From Steroidobacteraceae bacterium (lineage in GTDB: Bacteria > Pseudomonadota > Gammaproteobacteria > Steroidobacterales > Steroidobacteraceae), in the NCBI GenBank assembly GCA_027531255.1, contig JAPZRU010000008.1:62001-126000 (forward strand): DNA of 64,000 nt. Reading direction: 5' to 3'. The notes under the pieces are model-generated. The model did not search any database. It had not been told where the DNA came from and saw nothing but the letters and a program-made list of their open reading frames with translations. This document shows positions 40,483-50,000 of the stretch, in pieces. The position numbers were made by a program, and so were the translations under genes. The first letter of the stretch is position 1. Every line of letters begins with the position of its first letter.

Positions 40483-41249
40483 CCGCGTTCCGCGTCGTCG
40501 TCCCGGCGCGCTGGGGCTCCACGCGCCTGCCGGGCAAGCCGCTGCGCCTGCTCGCCGGGCGGCCGATGATCGAGCACGTCTGGCGGCGCGCCTGCGAGTC
40601 CGGCGCAGCCGAGGTGCTGGTCGCGACCGACGACGAGCGGATCGCGAGCGCGTGCCGGGAGTTCGGCGCGACCGCCGTGCTCACCGATCCCGGGCATCCG
40701 TCCGGCACCGACCGGCTCGCGGAGGTCGCGCGCACGCGCGGCTGGCCCGCCCACGAGATCGTCGTGAACGTGCAGGGCGACGAGCCGCTGCTGCCGCCGG
40801 CCAACGTCGCGCAGGTCGCGCAGCTGCTCGACGGCGCACCGGATTGCGCGATAGCCACGCTCGCCACGCCGGTGCGCACGCTGCACGAGTTCCTCGACCC
40901 GAACGCGGTCAAGGTTGCACTCGGCGGCAACGGCCGCGCACTGTACTTCAGTCGCGCGCCGATTCCGTGGGCGCGCGACGGTGCCCCTGCCGGACTCGCG
41001 AGCCAGACCGCGTACGCGCACGCTTTGCGCCACCTCGGGCTCTATGCTTACCGCTGCGGGTCGCTGCTGCGGCTCGCCGCGCTGCCGCCGTCGCCGCTCG
41101 AGGACACCGAGAAGCTCGAGCAGTTGCGCGCGCTCGAGAGCGGGATGCGGATCGCGGTCGCGGTCGCGGTCGCGGTGCCCGGTCCGGGGGTGGACACGGA
41201 AGCCGACCTCGCGGCGGCCGATGCGCTGCTCCGGGCCGCACCGCCCTGA
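40479..41249 (+). CDS. kdsB: 3-deoxy-manno-octulosonate cytidylyltransferase
   Basis: KdsB activates Kdo as CMP-Kdo for lipopolysaccharide. The 256-residue product has [70 protein letters not shown] and HLGLYAYR, with [16 protein letters not shown] near the end. A four-unit in-frame repeat near the 3' end encodes the AVAVAVAV stretch. It is the last gene of the lipid A run; the following epimerase begins 28 bp later. Confidence 0.96.
41152..41178 (+). repeat. Hexanucleotide tandem repeat within kdsB
   Basis: The unit GCGGTC is repeated three times in a row and followed by GCGGTG, inside codons for Ala-Val. Because the unit is 6 bp, changes in copy number would keep the reading frame and alter only the length of an Ala-Val strand that precedes the PGPGVDT motif. 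Confidence 0.75.
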
Positions 41250-41277
41250 AGCCCGACTTCACGACAAGGACGTCGTC

Positions 41278-42174
41278 TTGCCTCCCGAAGATTTCGAACT
41301 CCGCCACGGCCGGTTCCACGCCGCCGTGCGTCCGGCCGCCGGCGGTTCGCTGAGCGGCTTCTGGTTCCGCCACGAGACCGGCGACGAGGTCCCGGTCCTG
41401 CGGCCGGCACCGCCGGGCACGACCGCGCCGTTGTCGATGGCGAGCTTCCCGCTCGTGCCGTTCTGCAACCGGATCGCCGACGGCACGTTCCAGTGGCAGG
41501 GCCGCACGGTCCGGCTCTCGCCGAACCATCCCGGCGACGCGCTGCCGCTGCACGGCTACGGCTGGTACGTGCCCTGGCAGCTGGACGCGCGGGAGCCGGC
41601 CCGGATCGCGCTCCGCTGGGAGCACGCGCCGGACGAGTGGCCTTGGCCGTTCAGCGCGCGCGCGGAGTACGCACTCGACGATGCGGGGCTCGAACTCGCG
41701 CTCGAAATCGAGAACCGCGGGGACGTGCCCATGCCTGCCGGTCTCGGGCATCACCCGTACTTCCCGCGCTCGCCGGAGACGCGGCTGCGCGCGTACCTGC
41801 CATGGCGCTGGGAGGTGGATGCGCGGCTCGTTCCGCTGGACCGCGCACCCAACCCCGACGCGCAGGCGTTCGCGGACGGCGCGCGCCTCGCGGACCTGCG
41901 GCTGGACCACGGCTACACGGGCTGGGACTCGCACGCGGTCATCGACGAACCCGCGACGGGGCTGCGGATCCTGCTGCTGGGCGAGGGTGGCAACGCGTTC
42001 CACCTGTACGTGCCGGATACGCCGATCTACTGCGCCGAGGCGTGTACGAACCAGCCGAACGCGATCAACGACCCGCGCGCCGAGGCGACGATGCGTGCGG
42101 TGGGCCCCGGCGAGTCGATGCGCTTCCGGATGCGCCTCGACGTCGAGCCGCGCGAGCGCGCCGGCGCGCTTTAG
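41278..42174 (+). CDS. Aldose 1-epimerase family protein
   Basis: The 298-residue product belongs to the galactose-mutarotase fold: VPFCNRIADGTFQWQG, LPLHGYGWYVPWQ (catalytic-site histidine), GLGHHPYFPRSPETRL, and CAEACTNQPNAIND near the end. Members interconvert alpha and beta anomers of hexoses; GalM prepares galactose for GalK. The start is taken as TTG at 41278 because an AAGGA lies 7 bases upstream and no ATG or GTG fits the domain start. It is convergent with galK. The exact sugar is not proven, but its neighbours favour galactose. Confidence 0.85.
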   Translation: MPPEDFELRHGRFHAAVRPAAGGSLSGFWFRHETGDEVPVLRPAPPGTTAPLSMASFPLVPFCNRIADGTFQWQGRTVRLSPNHPGDALPLHGYGWYVPWQLDAREPARIALRWEHAPDEWPWPFSARAEYALDDAGLELALEIENRGDVPMPAGLGHHPYFPRSPETRLRAYLPWRWEVDARLVPLDRAPNPDAQAFADGARLADLRLDHGYTGWDSHAVIDEPATGLRILLLGEGGNAFHLYVPDTPIYCAEACTNQPNAINDPRAEATMRAVGPGESMRFRMRLDVEPRERAGAL

Positions 42175-42216
42175 CGCGGCACCAAGGTGAGGCGCACAGG
42201 GGCAGGAGCGGGGGCC

Positions 42217-43272
42217 TCAGACCAGCACGCGGCCGCTCCAGCCGCCGCGCGCGTAGATCGCGAGCGCCGCGGGGCGGGCGGCGTCCGCGGTGCCGCGCCG
42301 CGCGAGCGCGACGCAGGCGCCGCCGAAGCCGGCACCCGTGAGACGCGCGCCGAGCACGCCCGGCTGGGCCTGCAGCGCACCGACGAGCGCGTCCAGCGCG
42401 GGCACTGACACCTCGTAGTCGTCCCGCAGGCTCGCGTGCGAATCGTTCATCAGCTGACCGAAGCGCGCCGCGTCCGCCGTCACGGCCTCGAGCACCCGGT
42501 TGTTCTCGGTGACCACGTGCCGCGCGCGTCGGTCGAGCGGCCGCGGGAGATCGCGCGTGCGCGCCGGGTCCGCGACGTGGCGCAGGGACGGCACGCCGAG
42601 GTGCTGCGCGGCCGCCTCGCACTCGGCGCGGCGCGTGTTGTAGGCGCTGTCGGCGAGGTCGCGGGGCATGCCGCTGTCCAGCACGATCAGCTCCGCATCG
42701 CGCGGCAGCGGCAGCACGCGGCGCTCCAGCGTCAGGGTGTCGAGGAACAGCATGTGCTCGCGGTCGCAGAGGCTGCTCGCCATCTGGTCGAGCACGCCGC
42801 AGCGCACGCCGGCGTACTTCACCTCCGCGCGCTGCGCGAGCAGCGCGAGCTGCACGTCGTCGACCGGCAGACTCAGCAGCTCGCGGATCGCTCGGAGCGT
42901 CGCGACCTCGAGTGCCGCGCTCGACGACAGCCCTGCGCCGATCGGCACGTCGGACTCGACACGGACGCGCAGCGGCGGCACCGCGTGCCCGTCCTCGCGC
43001 AGCACCTCGACGCAGCCGTGCAGGTAGCGCGCGAAATCGACGGGCAGCGCGCGACCGTCGACGTGGTCGATCCGTGCGTCGAGGTTGGCCGAGTAGTAGG
43101 CGAAGCGGCCGTCGGGGCTCCGCGCCAGTTCCACGCGCGTGCGCTGCGGGATCGCGGTGGGCAGCACGTAGCCCTGGTTGTAGTCGGTGTGCTCGCCCAG
43201 CAGGTTGACGCGGCCGGGCGCCGTCGCGCTCACGGCGGGTGCGGTGCCGTAGATCGCCTGGAAACTCGCCAT
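42217..43272 (-). CDS. galK: Galactokinase
   Basis: GalK phosphorylates galactose to galactose 1-phosphate. The GHMP-kinase signatures are clear: [19 protein letters not shown] (substrate binding, with GEHTDYN), [17 protein letters not shown] (ATP-binding loop), [11 protein letters not shown] with the catalytic aspartate, and [15 protein letters not shown]. The ATG at 43270-43272 has GAGGAG in front; a longer frame starting at 43308 would overlap galT. Length is 351. It is the last gene of the GH2-galT-galK run. Confidence 0.95.
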
Positions 43273-43285
43273 CGCCCCGGGCTCC

Positions 43286-44374
43286 TCACTCGTCGATCGG
43301 TACGGCAACGGCCTGCAGCTCGCGGGCCTTGTCCTCCGGCAGCGCGTCCATCGCGAACATGCCGGCGGCCAGTTCCGTACCCGCCAGGAACTTCAGGCGG
43401 TCGCGCGTGCGGTAGGGCGGGGCGAACTCCGCATGCACGTGCGACTCCGGGTGCTCCGCGCCGTCGAGCGGCGCCTGGTACCACGCCATCAGGTATGGGA
43501 ACGGCCGGTTCCAGAGACCGTCGTACTTCTGCAGCAGCGTCCTCAGGGCCCGCGCGAGGTCCCGGCGCACCTCGGGGCCGAGCGCCGCGAGCGTGGGGGC
43601 CGCGCGGCGCGGCGCAACCCAGGCTTCGTACGGGTAGCGCGCCCACGCAGGCACGAACGCGACCGCGTGCGGTCCGGCGTACAGCACGCGTCTGCCGTCC
43701 GCGAGTTCCGCTGCGATCAGCGACTCGAGGAGCGGCTGCTGCGTGCGGCGCCAGTGATCGAGCTCCTGCGCGTGCATCCGCGCAGGCACCGGCGGCACGA
43801 ACGGGTAGGAATAGATCTGGCCGTGCGGGTGGTGCAGCGTGACGCCGACCTCGACGCCGCGGTTCTCGAACGGCAGCGTGTAGGCGACGCCGCCGCGGCG
43901 GGCCTGTCGCCCGGTGCGGTCGCCCAGGACCTCCAGCAGCAGGTCGACGTGGGTCAGCGGCAGGCCGCCGAGCGAGGCCTGCGGATCCTGCGTGAACACC
44001 ACGACCTCGCAGCGCCCGCGGCCCGGCTGCGTCGGCACGTGCAGGCTCGGCGGGTCGTGCGCTTCCGGGGCGAGCGACGGGAACAGGTTGTCGAACACCG
44101 CGACGTCGTAGTCGCCGGGCGGCAGTTCGGTAGGAAAGCGCGCGTCGCGCGACGGCCGCAGCGGGTTGTACTCCGGGGGCGGCAGGAACGTGCGGTCCTG
44201 TCGGTGCGCCGCATAGGCCACCCACTCGCCGCGCAGCGGATGCCAGCGCAGGTGCGGATTCGGATGGAGCGGAGCCGGGCGCGGGCTCGGAGCCGGACCG
44301 GCGGCGGTCACGGGCCCGCGACCGTAGAGCGTGAGGCACCGGCCGTCGGGCTTGACCAGATCCAGCGTGTACAC
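43286..44374 (-). CDS. galT: Galactose-1-phosphate uridylyltransferase
   Basis: GalT exchanges UMP between UDP-glucose and galactose 1-phosphate. The catalytic motif [12 protein letters not shown] is present, as are [40 protein letters not shown] and the later [20 protein letters not shown]. The GTG at 44372-44374 (start [12 protein letters not shown]) lies 7 bp after the GH2 stop; an ATG at 44413 would overlap GH2 by 32 bp. Length is about 362. galE is not in the window. Confidence 0.94.
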
Positions 44375-44381
44375 GGCGGGC

Positions 44382-46223
44382 CTAGAGCGGCGGCTTCGTC
44401 GGGGCGTTGGCACGGATCGCGGCGCGCATCCGCTCCAGCGGGAACTTCGGCCGGCGATCCGCCCAGAGCAGGCCGTTCGCCTCCTGGTAGGTGTCGGCGA
44501 ACTGCGTGTAGCAGAAGCCGCTGAACATGGCGGTGGTGCGCGCCACCTCGATCAGCGCGGTGGTCAGCCGTTCGAACGACTCGACGTCGCTGCACGCGGA
44601 GTAGCCCCAGGTCTCCTCCGTCTGGTCGTGGGTCCCGTCGAGCAGCGCGATGCCGCCGAATTCCGTCAGGCAGATCGGCTGGCCGCGGTGCGGGTAGCCG
44701 TCGAGCGTCAGGATTCGGCCGCCCGACCACCGGCGGTCGACCACCTCCTGCGTCTTCACCTCCGGGCCGTAGCGCGCCCGCAGGTGGGCCGGTTCGCAGT
44801 CGTAGTCGTGGATGCCGATGATGTCGGTCGCCGAACTCTCCCAGCCGTCGTTCCCGATCACCGGCCGGTGGGGATCCAGCGTGCGGGTGAGGTGGTAGAG
44901 CGCCGCGACCGCGTCGCGCGCCGCGCCGACGGTGTTAAGGTCCGGCACGCCCCACGACTCGTTGAACGGCACCCACACGATGACGCAAGGGTGGCTGCGA
45001 TCGCGAGCGACGGCCTCGGACCACTCGCGCACCATGCGGTTGATCGCCTTCGGCGTGAACCGGTAGGCGCTCGGCATTTCCTCCCATACCAGCAGGCCGA
45101 TCACGTCCGCCCAGTAGAGGTAGCGCGGATCCTCGATCTTCTGGTGCTTGCGCACGCCGTTGAACCCCATCGCCTTCGCCAGTTCGACGTCGCGCCGCAG
45201 CGCGTGGTCGTCCGGCGGGGTCATCAGCGTGCCGGGCCAGTAGCCCTGGTCGAGCACCATGCGGAGGTGGTACTGCCGGCCGTTCAGCAGGATCTTCTCG
45301 CGCTGCGTCGAGATGCTGCGGATCGCGGTGTAGGAGTGCACGCGATCGACGACCTCGTCGCCGCGCAGCAGCTGCAGCTCCGCCTGGATCAGCGTCGGCC
45401 GCTCGGGCGACCACAGCAGCTCGTTGCGGTAGTCGTCGATGCCGGGATCCGAGAGCGCGATGCGCCGGTGCACCTCGCCGTGCAGCACGCGGTACGTGTC
45501 GTCCGCCAGCACGCCGCCGTTCACGGTCAGCGTGACCTGCAGGCGCAGCGAATCGACGGCGCGGCCCGCGGTGGCCGCGTGGATCGCGATCTCCCATCGC
45601 TCGAGGTTGGGCGTCCACCGGATCGATGCCAGGTACGTGGCCGGCACGCACTCGAGCCAGACCGTCTGCCAGATCCCGGTGGTGCGCGGATACCAGATCG
45701 CGTGCGGCTCCAGCTGCCAGTCCTGCTTGCCGCGCGGCTTCTCGAGGTCGTGAGGATCGTCCTCCGCCCAGACGGTCACCGTCTGGCGCGCGCCGGGCAC
45801 CAGCGCGTCCGTGACGTCCGCGACGAACGGCGTGTGGCCGCCCTCGTGCTCCGCGACCGACGCGCCGTTCACCCATACGCGGGCCCGGTAGTCCACCGCG
45901 CCGAAATGCAGCAGCACGCGCGCGCAGCGCGGCTCGCCGTCGTCGATCGAGGAGTCGAGCTGCGCCGGATCGAGCTCGAAATCGCGCTGGTACCAGCACG
46001 CACGGTGGAAGCCGGTGTCGTGCACGCCGCTGCGCTCGCATTCGGGTGCGAACGGCACCTCGATGGTGAGCGGCCACGACCGAACCTCGCCGGGCGTCTT
46101 CCAGCGCAGCTCGTCGTCGAACGCGAAGCGCCAGGGACCGTTCAGGCAGTTCCAGTGTCGGCGCCGGAACTGCGGCGTGGGGTGGGGCAGTTCGTTCATT
46201 GCGGCGGGCAGGACGGGGGACAT
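44382..46223 (-). CDS. Glycoside hydrolase family 2 protein, probable beta-galactosidase
   Basis: The 613-residue product has the GH2 sugar-binding jelly-roll (LNGPWRFAFDDE, GFHRACWYQRDFEL, FGAVDYRARVWVNG), an immunoglobulin-like middle domain and a TIM barrel. The acid/base glutamate is E422 in VWVPFNESWG and the nucleophile is E521 in ICLTEFGG. There is no signal peptide, so it should act in the cytoplasm. Substrate could be beta-galactoside, glucuronide or mannoside; galT and galK directly downstream favour galactose release. The ATG at 46223 is chosen over 46199 because an AAGG precedes it, but spacing is short. Open frames upstream of it are not credible. Confidence 0.88.
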   Translation of the reverse strand: MSPVLPAAMNELPHPTPQFRRRHWNCLNGPWRFAFDDELRWKTPGEVRSWPLTIEVPFAPECERSGVHDTGFHRACWYQRDFELDPAQLDSSIDDGEPRCARVLLHFGAVDYRARVWVNGASVAEHEGGHTPFVADVTDALVPGARQTVTVWAEDDPHDLEKPRGKQDWQLEPHAIWYPRTTGIWQTVWLECVPATYLASIRWTPNLERWEIAIHAATAGRAVDSLRLQVTLTVNGGVLADDTYRVLHGEVHRRIALSDPGIDDYRNELLWSPERPTLIQAELQLLRGDEVVDRVHSYTAIRSISTQREKILLNGRQYHLRMVLDQGYWPGTLMTPPDDHALRRDVELAKAMGFNGVRKHQKIEDPRYLYWADVIGLLVWEEMPSAYRFTPKAINRMVREWSEAVARDRSHPCVIVWVPFNESWGVPDLNTVGAARDAVAALYHLTRTLDPHRPVIGNDGWESSATDIIGIHDYDCEPAHLRARYGPEVKTQEVVDRRWSGGRILTLDGYPHRGQPICLTEFGGIALLDGTHDQTEETWGYSACSDVESFERLTTALIEVARTTAMFSGFCYTQFADTYQEANGLLWADRRPKFPLERMRAAIRANAPTKPPL

Positions 46224-46521
46224 CACCTTGCTTCGGAGTGATCGGTCGCGCGGCGACCGCAACGCGGGAGCGTCGCACGCGCACGGTGGCGAGCCGTCCC
46301 GCGACGTTGCGGATTCGGGCGGAGCACCGGCTAGACGCAACCGCTCGCGGCTCGGCTCGTCGCGCGTGCGTGCGCCCGATGCAACGCACCCGCAAGCGTC
46401 CCGCTTGCGGCACGCATCGTGCAGGGGTCGAAAAGCTACATGCGCCCCCTGCCGGCGCGCCTCGCGAGCCGCGCTCAGCCGCGCCCGCGGGTCGGACACC
46501 GCGAATGCCAGGAGATGGCCG
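46224..46521. other. Divergent intergenic region between GH2 and the transferase-mutase fusion
   Basis: This 298-bp region must hold the promoters of both divergent units. I see no convincing -35/-10 pair on either strand. It contains the strong hairpin at 46390-46410 and an AGGAG ribosome-binding site just before the fusion start. Long frames crossing it are GC shadows. Confidence 0.6.
46390..46410. repeat. Perfect 9-bp inverted repeat in the gal divergent region
   Basis: CCGCAAGCG (46390-46398), TCC, CGCTTGCGG (46402-46410) form a perfect palindrome. A weaker outer pair GATGC/GCATC flanks it. No T-run follows on either strand, so it is not a standard terminator; an operator or a leader stem-loop is more likely. 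Confidence 0.7.
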
Positions 46522-49377
46522 ATGCCGAGCGCGCTCATCGTCTTTTCGCACCTCCGCTGGGATTTCGTCTTCCAGCGTCCGCAGCATCTGCTGACGCGGC
46601 TCGCGCGTCGACACCCGGTGTACTTCTTCGAGGAACCGCTGCGGGTCGAGGGCGAGTCGCGGCTCGAGGTGGTCGAGGCAGCGCCGAACGTCCATGTCTG
46701 CCGGCCGCACACGTCGATCGACGCGCCGGGCTTCCACGACGACCAGATTCCCGTGCTGCAGAAGCTCGTCGGCGAACTGGTGGAGCGCGAAGCGCTCGTG
46801 GACTACGCGCTGTGGTTCTATTCGCCGATGGCGCTGCCGCTCGCACAGGAGCTCGCGCCGCGCGCGGTCGCGTACGACTGCATGGACGAGCTGTCCGCGT
46901 TCCTGAACGCGCCGAAGCAGCTGCACCAGCGCGAGAGCGCTCTCCTGAAGGCCGCCGACGTCGTGTTCACCGGCGGCCCGAGCCTGTACCGCGCGAAAAA
47001 GGACCGGCACGCCAACGTGCACTGCTTCCCGAGCAGCGTCGACGCCGCGCACTTCGCCGAGGCCCGCATGGAGGCCGCCGACCACCCGCTGCAGGCGCGG
47101 CTCCCGCGTCCGCGGCTGGGCTTCTACGGCGTGATCGACGAGCGCATCGACCTGGACCTGCTGGCCGGCGTCGCCGATGCGCGGCCGGACTGGCAGATCG
47201 TGATGGTGGGACCGGTCGTCAAGATCGACCCCGCGTCGCTGCCGCGCCGGCCGAACGTCCACTACTACGGCCAGCAGCCCTATGCGGAGCTGCCGAAGTT
47301 CGTCGCCGGCTGGGACCTCTGCATCCTGCCGTTCGCGCTGAACGATTCGACCCGCTACATCAGTCCGACGAAGACGCTCGAGTACATGGCGGCGGAGCGA
47401 CCGATCGTCGGCACGGCGGTGACCGACGTGGTGGGGCCGCACGGCGACCTCGTCGAGATCGTCGATTCCGTGGAGTCCTTCGTGGCCGCCTGCGAACTGC
47501 TGCTCGGCGCGCCGCCCGAGGCCCTCGCGGCGCTGCGCGCACGGATGCGTGCGCGAGTGGCGACGACGTCGTGGGATGCCACCGCCGGCGGCATGGCCGA
47601 CCTGCTGGCCCGCGCCGCCCAGGAGCGGTCCGCGCGCGTCGGCGAGGTCTTCCACCCGCAGTCCGCGCCGGCCGAGGTCGCCGCGGTGGCGGCGCACGAT
47701 TCGCACGTGGCCGTGATGGAGCGGGCGCCGCGGGCTGGCGTGCCGGCCGCAGGTCCCGTGCACGACGCGATCGTCGTCGGCGCGGGTCCGACCGGCTTGT
47801 CCTGTGCGTATCACCTCGGGCGCGGCAGCCTGCTGCTCGACCAGAACGAGACCATCGGCGGCTGGTGCCGGTCGGTCATGGAGCACGGGTTCACGTTCGA
47901 CCACGCCGGCCACATCATGTTCTCGACCGATCCGTACGTGCACGAGCTCTACCGGAAACTGCTCGGCGACAACGTGCACTGGCAGGATCGCGAGGCCTGG
48001 ATCTACAGCAAGCAGGTCTACACCCGCTACCCGTTCCAGGGCGCGCTGTACGGGTTGCCGCCGGACGTGCTGAAGGAGTGCATCGTCGGCGCGATCGAGG
48101 CGCGGTTCGGTCCCCTGAAGCCGGACGCGAAGCCGGCTGCGAAAGCGGTGCTGGCCGTGGCCGGGCAGTCGAGCGCGGGCGCGCCGCCTGCGTGTGCGCC
48201 GGCTGCCGATCTCAAGAGCGCCAGGTCCGCCTTCCGCGGGAGCTCGAGCCCGTCGATGGCCAAGGCCGAGTCGCTCACGGACTGCTGCGGCGACGGCATC
48301 GCCGAGGCCGAGCTGCCGCTGGCCGCGGCCTCGCAGGCGCCGCGGGCGCCAGCCGGCGACGGCAGGCCGAGGAACTTCGAGGAGTTCATCTACAGGGTCT
48401 GGGGCGCCGGCGTCGCGAAGCACTTCGCGATCCCCTACAACCGCAAGCTCTGGGCGACGCCGCTGCACGAGATCGAGACCTCGTGGCTCGGCGGGCGCGT
48501 GCCGCTGCCCGACCTCGAGGAGATGATCGACGGGGCGCTGCATCCCGTGGCGAAGCCGCAAGGGCCGAACGCCCGCTTCGGCTACCCGCTGCGCGGGGGC
48601 TTCCAGGCGCTGATGGACGGCTTCCTGCCGCTGCTCGAGGGCGGGCTGCGGCTGAACGCCCGGGTCGTCCGGGTCGTACCGTCGCGGCGCGAGGTCCACC
48701 TGCAGGACGGAAGCCGGCACCGCTACCGCCAGCTGGTGTCGACCATGCCGCTGCCGAAGCTCGTGGAGATGATCGGCGCCGAAGCGCCGCCGCACGTGCA
48801 CGCCGCGGTACGGAAGCTGCGGCACGTCTCGGTCCGCAACGTCAACCTCGGCGTCGGCCGCGAGCGGCTGACCGAGAAGCACTGGATCTACTATCCGGAG
48901 GATACGGTGTTCCACCGGATCTTCGTGCAGGGGAACGCGAGCCCGCACTGCAACCCGCCCGGCGGGTTCGGCCTGACGTGCGAGATCACGTACGCGCCTT
49001 CGAAGCCGCTGCCCTGCGAGGGCCAGGCGCTGATCGACCTCTGCATCCGCGACTGCGTCCAGGTCGGGCTGATCCGCGAGGACGACCCGATCCTGTGTGC
49101 GATCGAACTCGACATGCCGTACGCCTACGTGGTCTACGACCACGCGCGCAAGGAGAACTTCGAAATCGTGAAGGCCTGCATGGAGGCGCACGACATCGTG
49201 CTTGCCGGCCGGTACGGCGAGTGGGAGTACTACAACTCCGACCACGCGTTCATCGCCGGCCGCAACGCGGCGACGAAGGTGTGGGATGCGCTGTCGCGCC
49301 GCACCGCGCGGGCCGGCACGGTGGGCGCGGCCGCGGAGTCGATGGCCTCCAGCGCGGGCACGACTGCATCCGGGTGA
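46522..49377 (+). CDS. Fusion: GT4-like glycosyltransferase + UDP-galactopyranose-mutase-like flavoprotein
   Basis: This is a single 951-residue reading frame. Residues 1-365 form a GT-B glycosyltransferase: LIVFSHLRWDFVFQRPQHLL, AYDCMDELSAF, the second-domain start LGFYGVIDERIDLDLLAGV, and the donor site SPTKTLEYMAAERPIVGTAV. A linker of about 50 residues follows. From residue 415 there is a Rossmann FAD domain (DAIVVGAGPTGLSCAYHLGR), then GGWCRSVMEHGFTFDHAGHI, FEEFIYRVWGAGVAKHFAIPYNRKLWAT, YPLRGGFQALMDG and GRYGEWEYYNSDHAFIAGRNA. The second half belongs to the UDP-galactopyranose mutase/protoporphyrinogen oxidase-like superfamily. An Ala/Pro/Ser-rich insert spans about residues 533-615. The ATG follows AGGAG with good spacing. 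The mutase assignment is probable but unproven. Confidence 0.85.
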   Translation: MPSALIVFSHLRWDFVFQRPQHLLTRLARRHPVYFFEEPLRVEGESRLEVVEAAPNVHVCRPHTSIDAPGFHDDQIPVLQKLVGELVEREALVDYALWFYSPMALPLAQELAPRAVAYDCMDELSAFLNAPKQLHQRESALLKAADVVFTGGPSLYRAKKDRHANVHCFPSSVDAAHFAEARMEAADHPLQARLPRPRLGFYGVIDERIDLDLLAGVADARPDWQIVMVGPVVKIDPASLPRRPNVHYYGQQPYAELPKFVAGWDLCILPFALNDSTRYISPTKTLEYMAAERPIVGTAVTDVVGPHGDLVEIVDSVESFVAACELLLGAPPEALAALRARMRARVATTSWDATAGGMADLLARAAQERSARVGEVFHPQSAPAEVAAVAAHDSHVAVMERAPRAGVPAAGPVHDAIVVGAGPTGLSCAYHLGRGSLLLDQNETIGGWCRSVMEHGFTFDHAGHIMFSTDPYVHELYRKLLGDNVHWQDREAWIYSKQVYTRYPFQGALYGLPPDVLKECIVGAIEARFGPLKPDAKPAAKAVLAVAGQSSAGAPPACAPAADLKSARSAFRGSSSPSMAKAESLTDCCGDGIAEAELPLAAASQAPRAPAGDGRPRNFEEFIYRVWGAGVAKHFAIPYNRKLWATPLHEIETSWLGGRVPLPDLEEMIDGALHPVAKPQGPNARFGYPLRGGFQALMDGFLPLLEGGLRLNARVVRVVPSRREVHLQDGSRHRYRQLVSTMPLPKLVEMIGAEAPPHVHAAVRKLRHVSVRNVNLGVGRERLTEKHWIYYPEDTVFHRIFVQGNASPHCNPPGGFGLTCEITYAPSKPLPCEGQALIDLCIRDCVQVGLIREDDPILCAIELDMPYAYVVYDHARKENFEIVKACMEAHDIVLAGRYGEWEYYNSDHAFIAGRNAATKVWDALSRRTARAGTVGAAAESMASSAGTTASG

Positions 49378-49496
49378 CGCCGGACCGCGCCCGTCGGCCG
49401 GCGTGGCGCGAGCTCGTCGAGGTCGGGGATCGACAGGAGCGCCCGAGGACCTCGACAATCGCGCGACCGCCGTCGTCGACGTCCGCGAGTCCCCAC

Positions 49497-50000
49497 GTGA
49501 AGATCCTGTTCGTCTGCATGGGCAACATCTGCCGCTCGCCCACGGCCGAGGGTGCTTTCCGCCGGCTCGTGGCCGCCGAGGCGGCCGATCTCGCGCTCGA
49601 GATCGATTCGGCCGGTACGCACGATTACCACGTCGGCGAACCGCCGGATCCGCGCAGCGTCGCGGCCGCCCAGCGGCGCGGGATCGACCTCACGCCGCTG
49701 CGCGCGCGCCGGCTGGTCGAGGCCGACTTCGAGCGCTTCGACTACGTGCTGCTGATGGACGAGCAGAATCGGCGCGACGCGCTCGGGATCGCGCCCGGGC
49801 AGTACCGCGCGCAGGTGCGCCTGTTCCTGGAGTTCGCGCCGGAACTCGGCCGGCGCGAAGTGCCCGACCCGTACTACGGCGGCGAGCCCGGGTTCGAACT
49901 GGTGCTGGATCTCGTCGACTCGGCCGCGCGCGGCCTGCTCGCGGAGATCCGCGCGGCCCTGCAGAACGGCGGGCCGCCGGAAGCGACCCGCCGTCGTTGA
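49497..50000 (+). CDS. Low-molecular-weight protein-tyrosine-phosphatase family protein
   Basis: The 167-residue product starts VKILFVCMGNICRSPTAEG, the P-loop signature CxGNxCRS with catalytic cysteine and arginine. It ends with EVPDPYYGGEPGFELVLDLV, containing the general-acid DPYY motif. Family members dephosphorylate tyrosine residues of proteins such as exopolysaccharide kinases; arsenate reductases share the fold but lack this DPYY arrangement. It starts at GTG 49497 and is convergent with rne, with only 13 bp between stops. Confidence 0.93.
   Translation: MKILFVCMGNICRSPTAEGAFRRLVAAEAADLALEIDSAGTHDYHVGEPPDPRSVAAAQRRGIDLTPLRARRLVEADFERFDYVLLMDEQNRRDALGIAPGQYRAQVRLFLEFAPELGRREVPDPYYGGEPGFELVLDLVDSAARGLLAEIRAALQNGGPPEATRRR

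Follow-up and report, generated by a model that had tools for sequence, protein, structure and literature searches.

A bacterial fusion of a GT4-like glycosyltransferase with a UDP-galactopyranose mutase of the eukaryotic type

The window considered here is a stretch of 64,000 nucleotides from a Steroidobacteraceae bacterium (assembly GCA_027531255.1, contig JAPZRU010000008.1, positions 62,001 to 126,000 of the forward strand), and positions are counted from its first letter. At 46522-49377 its plus strand carries one open frame of 951 codons and a stop, which is translated without internal stops and which has a possible AGGAG 7 nt upstream of its ATG. The encoded protein joins a glycosyltransferase (GT) to a UDP-galactopyranose mutase (UGM), and a full-length match to it is found in one copy in the source genome. 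The gene and its parts are listed here, with confidence in the structural model given as the predicted local distance difference test (pLDDT).

46522..49377, plus strand: GT-UGM fusion gene, 951 aa (open frame; single copy in the genome; same fusion in 48 of the 80 best relatives)
46522..47631, plus strand: glycosyltransferase domain, residues 1-370, GT-B fold, GT4-like (PF13692 above cut-off; MshA Z 32.3, sucrose-phosphate synthase Z 32.2)
47644..47742, plus strand: disordered inter-domain linker, residues 375-407 (pLDDT below 50)
47746..49311, plus strand: eukaryotic-type UDP-galactopyranose mutase domain, residues 409-930 (phmmer 1e-48; fold Z 35-38; catalytic residues invariant)
48118..48357, plus strand: variable disordered insert in the mutase domain, approximately residues 533-612 (pLDDT below 50; length varies across 48 homologues)
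48280..48297, plus strand: conserved motif DCCGDG, residues 587-592 (xCCxDG in 41 of 48 sequences)

The original prediction for this DNA, that one frame fuses a glycosyltransferase to a mutase-like flavoprotein, is borne out by the 951-codon frame, by the Pfam domains and by two confident blocks in the structural model. Pfam recognizes Glyco_trans_1_4 at residues 217-328, NAD_binding_8 at residues 418-480 and Amino_oxidase further on, all above cut-off. The AlphaFold2 model, for which 43 aligned fusions served as input, has a mean pLDDT of 82.1 and a predicted template modelling score (pTM) of 0.54, and residues 375-407 lie between its two blocks. The domains had been placed at residues 1-365 and 415-951. 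The mutase domain is indeed complete, with model residues 408-926 pairing with residues 2-477 of solved eukaryotic UGM chains, but it ends at about residue 930 rather than 951 and contains a disordered insert.

A species-genome collection was scanned with a five-row alignment, by which at least 589 stretches encoding a relative were found, and the best 80 were analyzed. This survey, which had been proposed as a check for the same fusion or adjacent split genes, returned 48 loci with both halves in one frame, 22 of them with a glycosidase-like domain, GT and UGM and 26 with GT and UGM. The remaining loci are 3 with adjacent separate GT and UGM genes (Gemmatimonadales L127 and L129, proteobacterium L126), 26 with the GT alone in its frame and 3 with a glycosidase-like domain and GT. 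Three of the 48 fusions (L125, L128 and L133) are truncated where their contigs stop, and a fourth, L140, is gapped in the catalytic region. Carriers of the fusion among the best 80 include Massilia, Duganella, Noviherbaspirillum, Nitrosospira, Methylococcaceae, Chimaeribacter, Pantoea and Xanthomonas, and also Terriglobia, Phycisphaerae, Gemmatimonadales and Pelotalea; in 58 other genomes examined from the family and order of the window the fusion was found in none. Plasmid records hold 17 places that cover at least 80% of the query, of which 11 are labeled ‘FAD-dependent oxidoreductase’ (FAD, flavin adenine dinucleotide), 3 ‘NAD(P)-binding protein’ and one (H15) ‘glycosyltransferase’, the rest having no listed gene. 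The original prediction noted that mutase and galactofuranosyltransferases are separate proteins in known pathways; the fusion is not unique, however, and similar public entries are named ‘FAD-dependent oxidoreductase’ or ‘glf’. The adjacent split genes in 3 of the 80 relatives could be taken to indicate that two separate genes were joined in the window by an assembly or frameshift error, which the original prediction had named as a possible refutation. The same join is, however, conserved in other species. It was observed in 48 of the 80 relatives, which belong to several phyla and stem from many different projects, and we give such an error practically no credence.

The assignment of the C-terminal half to the eukaryotic type of UDP-galactopyranose mutase is well supported. 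In a phmmer search against the PDB this half matched the UGM of Aspergillus fumigatus at 1e-48 and that of Trypanosoma cruzi at 9e-43, and the next matches were protoporphyrinogen oxidases at 5e-4 over about 40 residues. By fold, the 17 listed eukaryotic UGM entries reach Z 35.1-38.3 over 421-430 residues with a root-mean-square deviation of 2.2-2.8, whereas protoporphyrinogen oxidases and bacterial UGMs stay at Z of about 28-29.5. The fold shared with protoporphyrinogen oxidases at this level and the Amino_oxidase domain above its Pfam cut-off are what can be said for the alternative, raised in the original prediction, that the flavoprotein half is an oxidase of the amine oxidase or protoporphyrinogen oxidase kind. 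The NCBIfam models for protoporphyrinogen oxidase score far below their curated cut-offs (TIGR00562, 14 bits against 97.85; NF008845, 18.2 against 560), the residues of UGM are kept and eukaryotic UGM is clearly the better fold match, so that an oxidase is disfavored and in our view highly improbable.

Passages of a quantum mechanics/molecular mechanics study of T. cruzi UGM analyze the nine residues His62, Arg176, Asn201, Tyr317, Arg327, Tyr395, Arg423, Tyr429 and Asn433 (PMC4192007). The corresponding positions of the window protein, H464, R659, N683, Y790, R799, Y869, R897, Y903 and N905, are invariant in 43 fusions, and the loss of sugar- and UDP-binding residues, named earlier as a finding that would speak against a mutase, was thus not observed. 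These positions were located by hand via the alignment with A. fumigatus, and the residue equivalence between T. cruzi and A. fumigatus is in part general background. As a control, 14 positions were read in the fused domains and in 15 bacterial paralogues. All 14 match in each of the 13 complete fused rows (a fourteenth row, L125, is cut by the contig end and was left out), but in none of the 15 paralogues, which also all lack N683. The bit scores to eukaryotic UGM, by which nearness was judged over the aligned stretches of those chains, are 164-170 for the fused domains and 71-110 for the four paralogues searched.

These comparisons bear on the possibility that the flavoprotein half is a mutase-like enzyme for another nucleotide sugar, with the GT using that product. 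Most of the catalytic frame is also present in a wider family of bacterial proteins, and very few UGMs have been characterized, which leaves some room for this view. The residue control and the greater nearness of the fused domains to eukaryotic UGM argue against it, as do the exchange with canonical Glf and the neighboring galK and galT genes described below, and we regard another sugar as unlikely. As an observation on the paralogues themselves, five of the 15 (L003, L004, L037, L038 and L072) have the Arg/Tyr frame of UGM but carry His for W644, Asn for Y869 and Trp for N905; these are possibly mutases for another sugar.

With eukaryotic UGM (A. fumigatus 3ute and 5hhf, T. cruzi 4dsg) the window protein shares the fold, the catalytic residues and the closest sequence match; it differs in being bacterial, in its position behind a fused GT, in an insert with a CC motif and in contacts to reduced nicotinamide adenine dinucleotide phosphate (NADPH) that are kept in part. 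According to passages on A. fumigatus UGM, these contacts are Ile65, Phe66, His68, Arg91, Ser93, Tyr104 and Tyr317, and also Asn57 (PMC7662398). Placed by hand in the window protein, F467, R490, Y503 and Y790 are kept, M466, T469 and A492 are changed, and Asn57 could not be placed. Bacterial Glf (PF03275) occurs in the same position, as neighbor or fusion partner of the same GT family, and has the same predicted reaction, but PF03275 has no match in the fusion protein at E up to 10 and none in the source genome; passages in PMC3624792 give an identity of 14-18% between the two mutase classes. The best NCBIfam match of the mutase half is to PRK07208-type flavoproteins (NF005548, hypothetical protein), at 160.2 bits and below the cut-off of 389.

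The insert has a pLDDT below 50 at residues 537-612 with the exception of residue 555. Across the family, the stretch between residues 528 and 619 is disordered and comprises 0-90 aa, with 90 in the window protein and 0 in L140. The motif xCCxDG is the conserved element of this otherwise variable insert, and cysteine makes up 5.0% of the insert as compared to 1.6% elsewhere. No CC motif is seen at the corresponding place of the aligned A. fumigatus chain. The insert was also considered as a repeat and rejected as such: Tandem Repeats Finder reported a single weak row of 36 bases, and the length of the insert differs from member to member throughout the family.

The N-terminal half is a GT4-like glycosyltransferase with GT-B fold, as seen from the fold and from the Pfam group-1 domain (PF13692, 36.6 bits, cut-off 27). 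Its best fold matches are retaining GT-B enzymes, MshA and sucrose-phosphate synthase foremost, and we infer that the GT half itself is retaining. The highest-scoring NCBIfam model is that of the teichuronic acid glycosyltransferase TuaH (NF047676), which at 77.3 bits lies far under its cut-off of 550.

The two mutase lineages, eukaryotic-type UGM and canonical Glf, replace each other beside this same GT family. It is fused to canonical Glf in L031, L032, L063, L067 and L069 (PF03275 at 1.7e-74 or better), records from Azospirillum and Rhizobium leguminosarum contain long genes named glf at the match, and in Comamonas and Deinococcus GT and glf are neighboring genes. From 22 strong GT matches, 20 stretches were extended, leaving out the Glf fusions L031 and L069. 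Glf was fused to the GT match or at most 150 nt away in 15 of the 20 and 2.2 kb off in one; of the others, one holds a fusion of the window type and three have no visible UGM. A quickly built maximum-likelihood tree of 63 GT rows requires at least 5 changes of partner type and at least 12 of the fused or separate state, counts that are rough, with 19 weak forks and three long outgroup branches in the tree.

The association also extends to whole genomes. One bacterial family was sampled with 145 genomes, of which 54 gave a match to the protein at 1e-25; two of these with weak matches (G852 and G853) were counted as non-carriers. A UGM of either type is present in 51 of the 52 GT carriers, of the eukaryotic type in 33 and as Glf in 18 of the 19 others, and Glf occurs in 3 of the 93 non-carriers of the same family. 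Fisher's test of 18/19 versus 3/93 gives p = 9e-17, a nominal value that is uncorrected for kinship. In 23 of the best 80 loci the GT is present with neither UGM type in the stretch; 22 of these genomes were searchable, and Glf lies elsewhere in 21 of them, as compared to 14 of 229 genomes sampled from the class, and five of these 14 also carry the GT. Some genomes are apparently contained in both samples (same contig numbers and coordinates), so that the two counts are not independent. The repeated occurrence of one GT family as fusion partner or neighbor of two highly dissimilar mutases argues on genetic grounds for a new family of galactofuranosyltransferases.

The genes next to the fusion gene in the window belong to galactose metabolism or resemble glycosidases.

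44382..46202, minus strand: gene for a GH2 (glycoside hydrolase family 2) glycosidase of the beta-galactosidase or beta-glucuronidase type, transcribed divergently to the fusion gene (four GH2 domains in Pfam, all above cut-off)
43286..44413, minus strand: galT, galactose-1-phosphate uridylyltransferase (TIGR00209, 136.7 bits, cut-off 102.1)
42217..43308, minus strand: galK, galactokinase (TIGR00131, 277.6 bits, cut-off 226.65)
41239..42174, plus strand, start codon approximate: aldose 1-epimerase, galM-like (PF01263, 3.7e-40)

Thus galK, galT and the GH2 gene, whose NCBIfam matches all lie below the equivalog cut-off, point away from the fusion gene, with the aldose epimerase gene beyond them. 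A galE match in the source genome scores over cut-off, although a stop is flagged within it, and a different contig carries glycosidase-like relatives. In relatives, neighboring genes were sought by targeted tblastn at the 50 of the best 80 loci that have a eukaryotic-type UGM; since flanks of more than 20 kb in all were available for 32 of these, the counts are lower bounds. A glycosidase-like domain, fused or separate, was found at 28 or more of the 50 loci, GH2 at 25 or more, galK at 12 or more and galT at 10 or more; at least one of the two glycosidases is present at 45 loci and neither at 5. In Methylomagnum ishizawai a single run of genes comprises GT-UGM, GH2, galT, galK and a glycosidase-like gene, and L187 and L188 have GH2, galT and galK beside a GT and canonical Glf, that is, the same set with the other mutase. 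Genes for ATP-binding cassette (ABC) exporters lie near 6 of the 50 loci, which hints weakly at a lipid-linked product.

The galactose genes together with the GT-UGM gene (41249-49500) are probably an acquired island. In the window, this set lies in the 8.2 kb that separate kdsB from a phosphatase gene. Of the 29 relatives' phosphatase loci that were returned (1.5-kb flank), kdsB is found at 15, and within 250 nt at 11, whereas galactose genes, GH2 and GT are found in none of these 29 flanks; kdsB, the phosphatase and RNase E were checked against family models. As the set lies between two genes that are close to each other in part of the relatives, it looks like an insertion. Its GC content (guanine plus cytosine) of 0.69-0.75 is not distinctive.

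Two further architectures were observed at these loci. The three-domain proteins of about 1250 aa at 22 of the best 80 loci have the glycosidase-like domain (for example L058:340-1500) fused before GT and UGM. This domain has a weak match to GH1 (glycoside hydrolase family 1; TIGR03356, 1e-4), and its copies have an NE motif in 32 of 34 cases and an [AS]E[TS] motif in 30 of 34, which we take to be catalytic; that it is a galactofuranosidase or a transglycosidase is a guess. A second fusion, at L171:13024-15195 with relatives in L098, L121, L187 and L188, joins a GH1-like domain to an RmlD-type reductase and recurs beside both mutase versions, and it may be part of the same glycan pathway.

Taken from domain identities, conserved residues, conservation of the fusion, the exchange of the mutase for canonical Glf, the association across genomes and gene context, the fusion is predicted to be a bifunctional mutase-galactofuranosyltransferase, which we consider likely. 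Both activities, the donor of the GT, the direction of flow and the acceptor are our reading of these data, and the pathway would run as follows. The GH2 enzyme, GalK and GalT encoded nearby would convert galactosides toward a supply of UDP-galactopyranose (UDP-Galp). The reduced FAD of the mutase half would attack C1 of UDP-Galp, the ring would open and close as the furanose, and the sugar would go back to UDP. The N-terminal retaining GT-B enzyme would then take the resulting UDP-galactofuranose (UDP-Galf) as donor and add galactofuranose (Galf) to a surface glycan or glycolipid. The UDP-Galf may be handed from the mutase domain to the GT domain, a step that is only suggested by the anatomy of the protein. 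According to passages in PMC7278926 the mutase equilibrium favors UDP-Galp by 11:1, so that it would be an advantage for the same chain to carry a domain that consumes the product.

Several points weigh against this prediction. In ten of the 15 paralogues N683 is the only one of the nine catalytic positions to differ and the other eight are kept, so that the residues are typical of a broader mutase-like family in addition to UGM, and the contacts to NADPH are retained only partly. For the GT half a close characterized relative is missing here, and its role with UDP-Galf as donor rests on association. One GT carrier in the family sample, G837 (97% complete, 6% contaminated), has no detected mutase, and Nitrosovibrio tenuis L161 has an intact GT followed by a mutase remnant of 61 residues (L161:10277-10459), with no Glf found in the genome. 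With a pTM of 0.54, the model gives no reliable arrangement of the two domains relative to each other. Finally, many genomes (21) encode the GT by itself at a distance from Glf, and physical linkage is therefore not required.

Both halves could act as named but be tethered and otherwise independent, the fusion fixing co-expression and ratio while UDP-Galf passes through solution. This view has the activities in common with the explanation given above and differs from it only on the hand-over. It agrees with the long and disordered linker, with partners that are separate in the 3 split loci of the 80 and with Glf elsewhere in 21 of 22 genomes, and with the repeated change between the fused and the separate state on the GT tree. 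That fusion has arisen with two distant mutase types suggests instead that nearness is useful, and the unfavorable mutase equilibrium points the same way; we give passage through solution an even chance. The passages of PMC4213368 that were checked for channeling between mutase and transferase hold nothing on a mutase.

Returning to the bifunctional enzyme, a bolder and rather doubtful extension is that there is a widespread and so far undescribed class of self-supplying Galf transferases, in which one chain makes UDP-Galf by a bacterial form of the eukaryotic-type mutase and passes it directly to a new GT4-like family, the conserved CC motif of a mobile insert acts as a thiol switch or docking element, and the bacterial mutases are the nearest relatives, and perhaps the source, of eukaryotic UGM. 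The galactan genes pamABC of Kingella kingae are a related known system, in which, as described in passages of PMC12269835, the mutase PamB and the Galf transferases PamA and PamC are encoded together; unlike the product of the window gene they are separate proteins, and the transferases are of the GT111 and GT2 type (PMC12269835).

No description of the fusion, of a bacterial eukaryotic-type UGM or of the implied GT family was found in searches of open-licence papers, most subscription journals lying outside that scope. Each single activity is already known. Enzymes of galactofuranose metabolism are drug targets. Galactofuranose is absent from humans, as stated in PMC3308961, and galactofuranosyltransferases are called poorly described in PMC6279836. 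The eukaryotic-type form of UGM is best known from fungi and trypanosomes, and the present analysis places it in many bacteria, where it is labeled ‘FAD-dependent oxidoreductase’. The pairing is found repeatedly in distantly related bacteria, and the fusion would allow a direct test of whether one enzyme hands its donor to the other.

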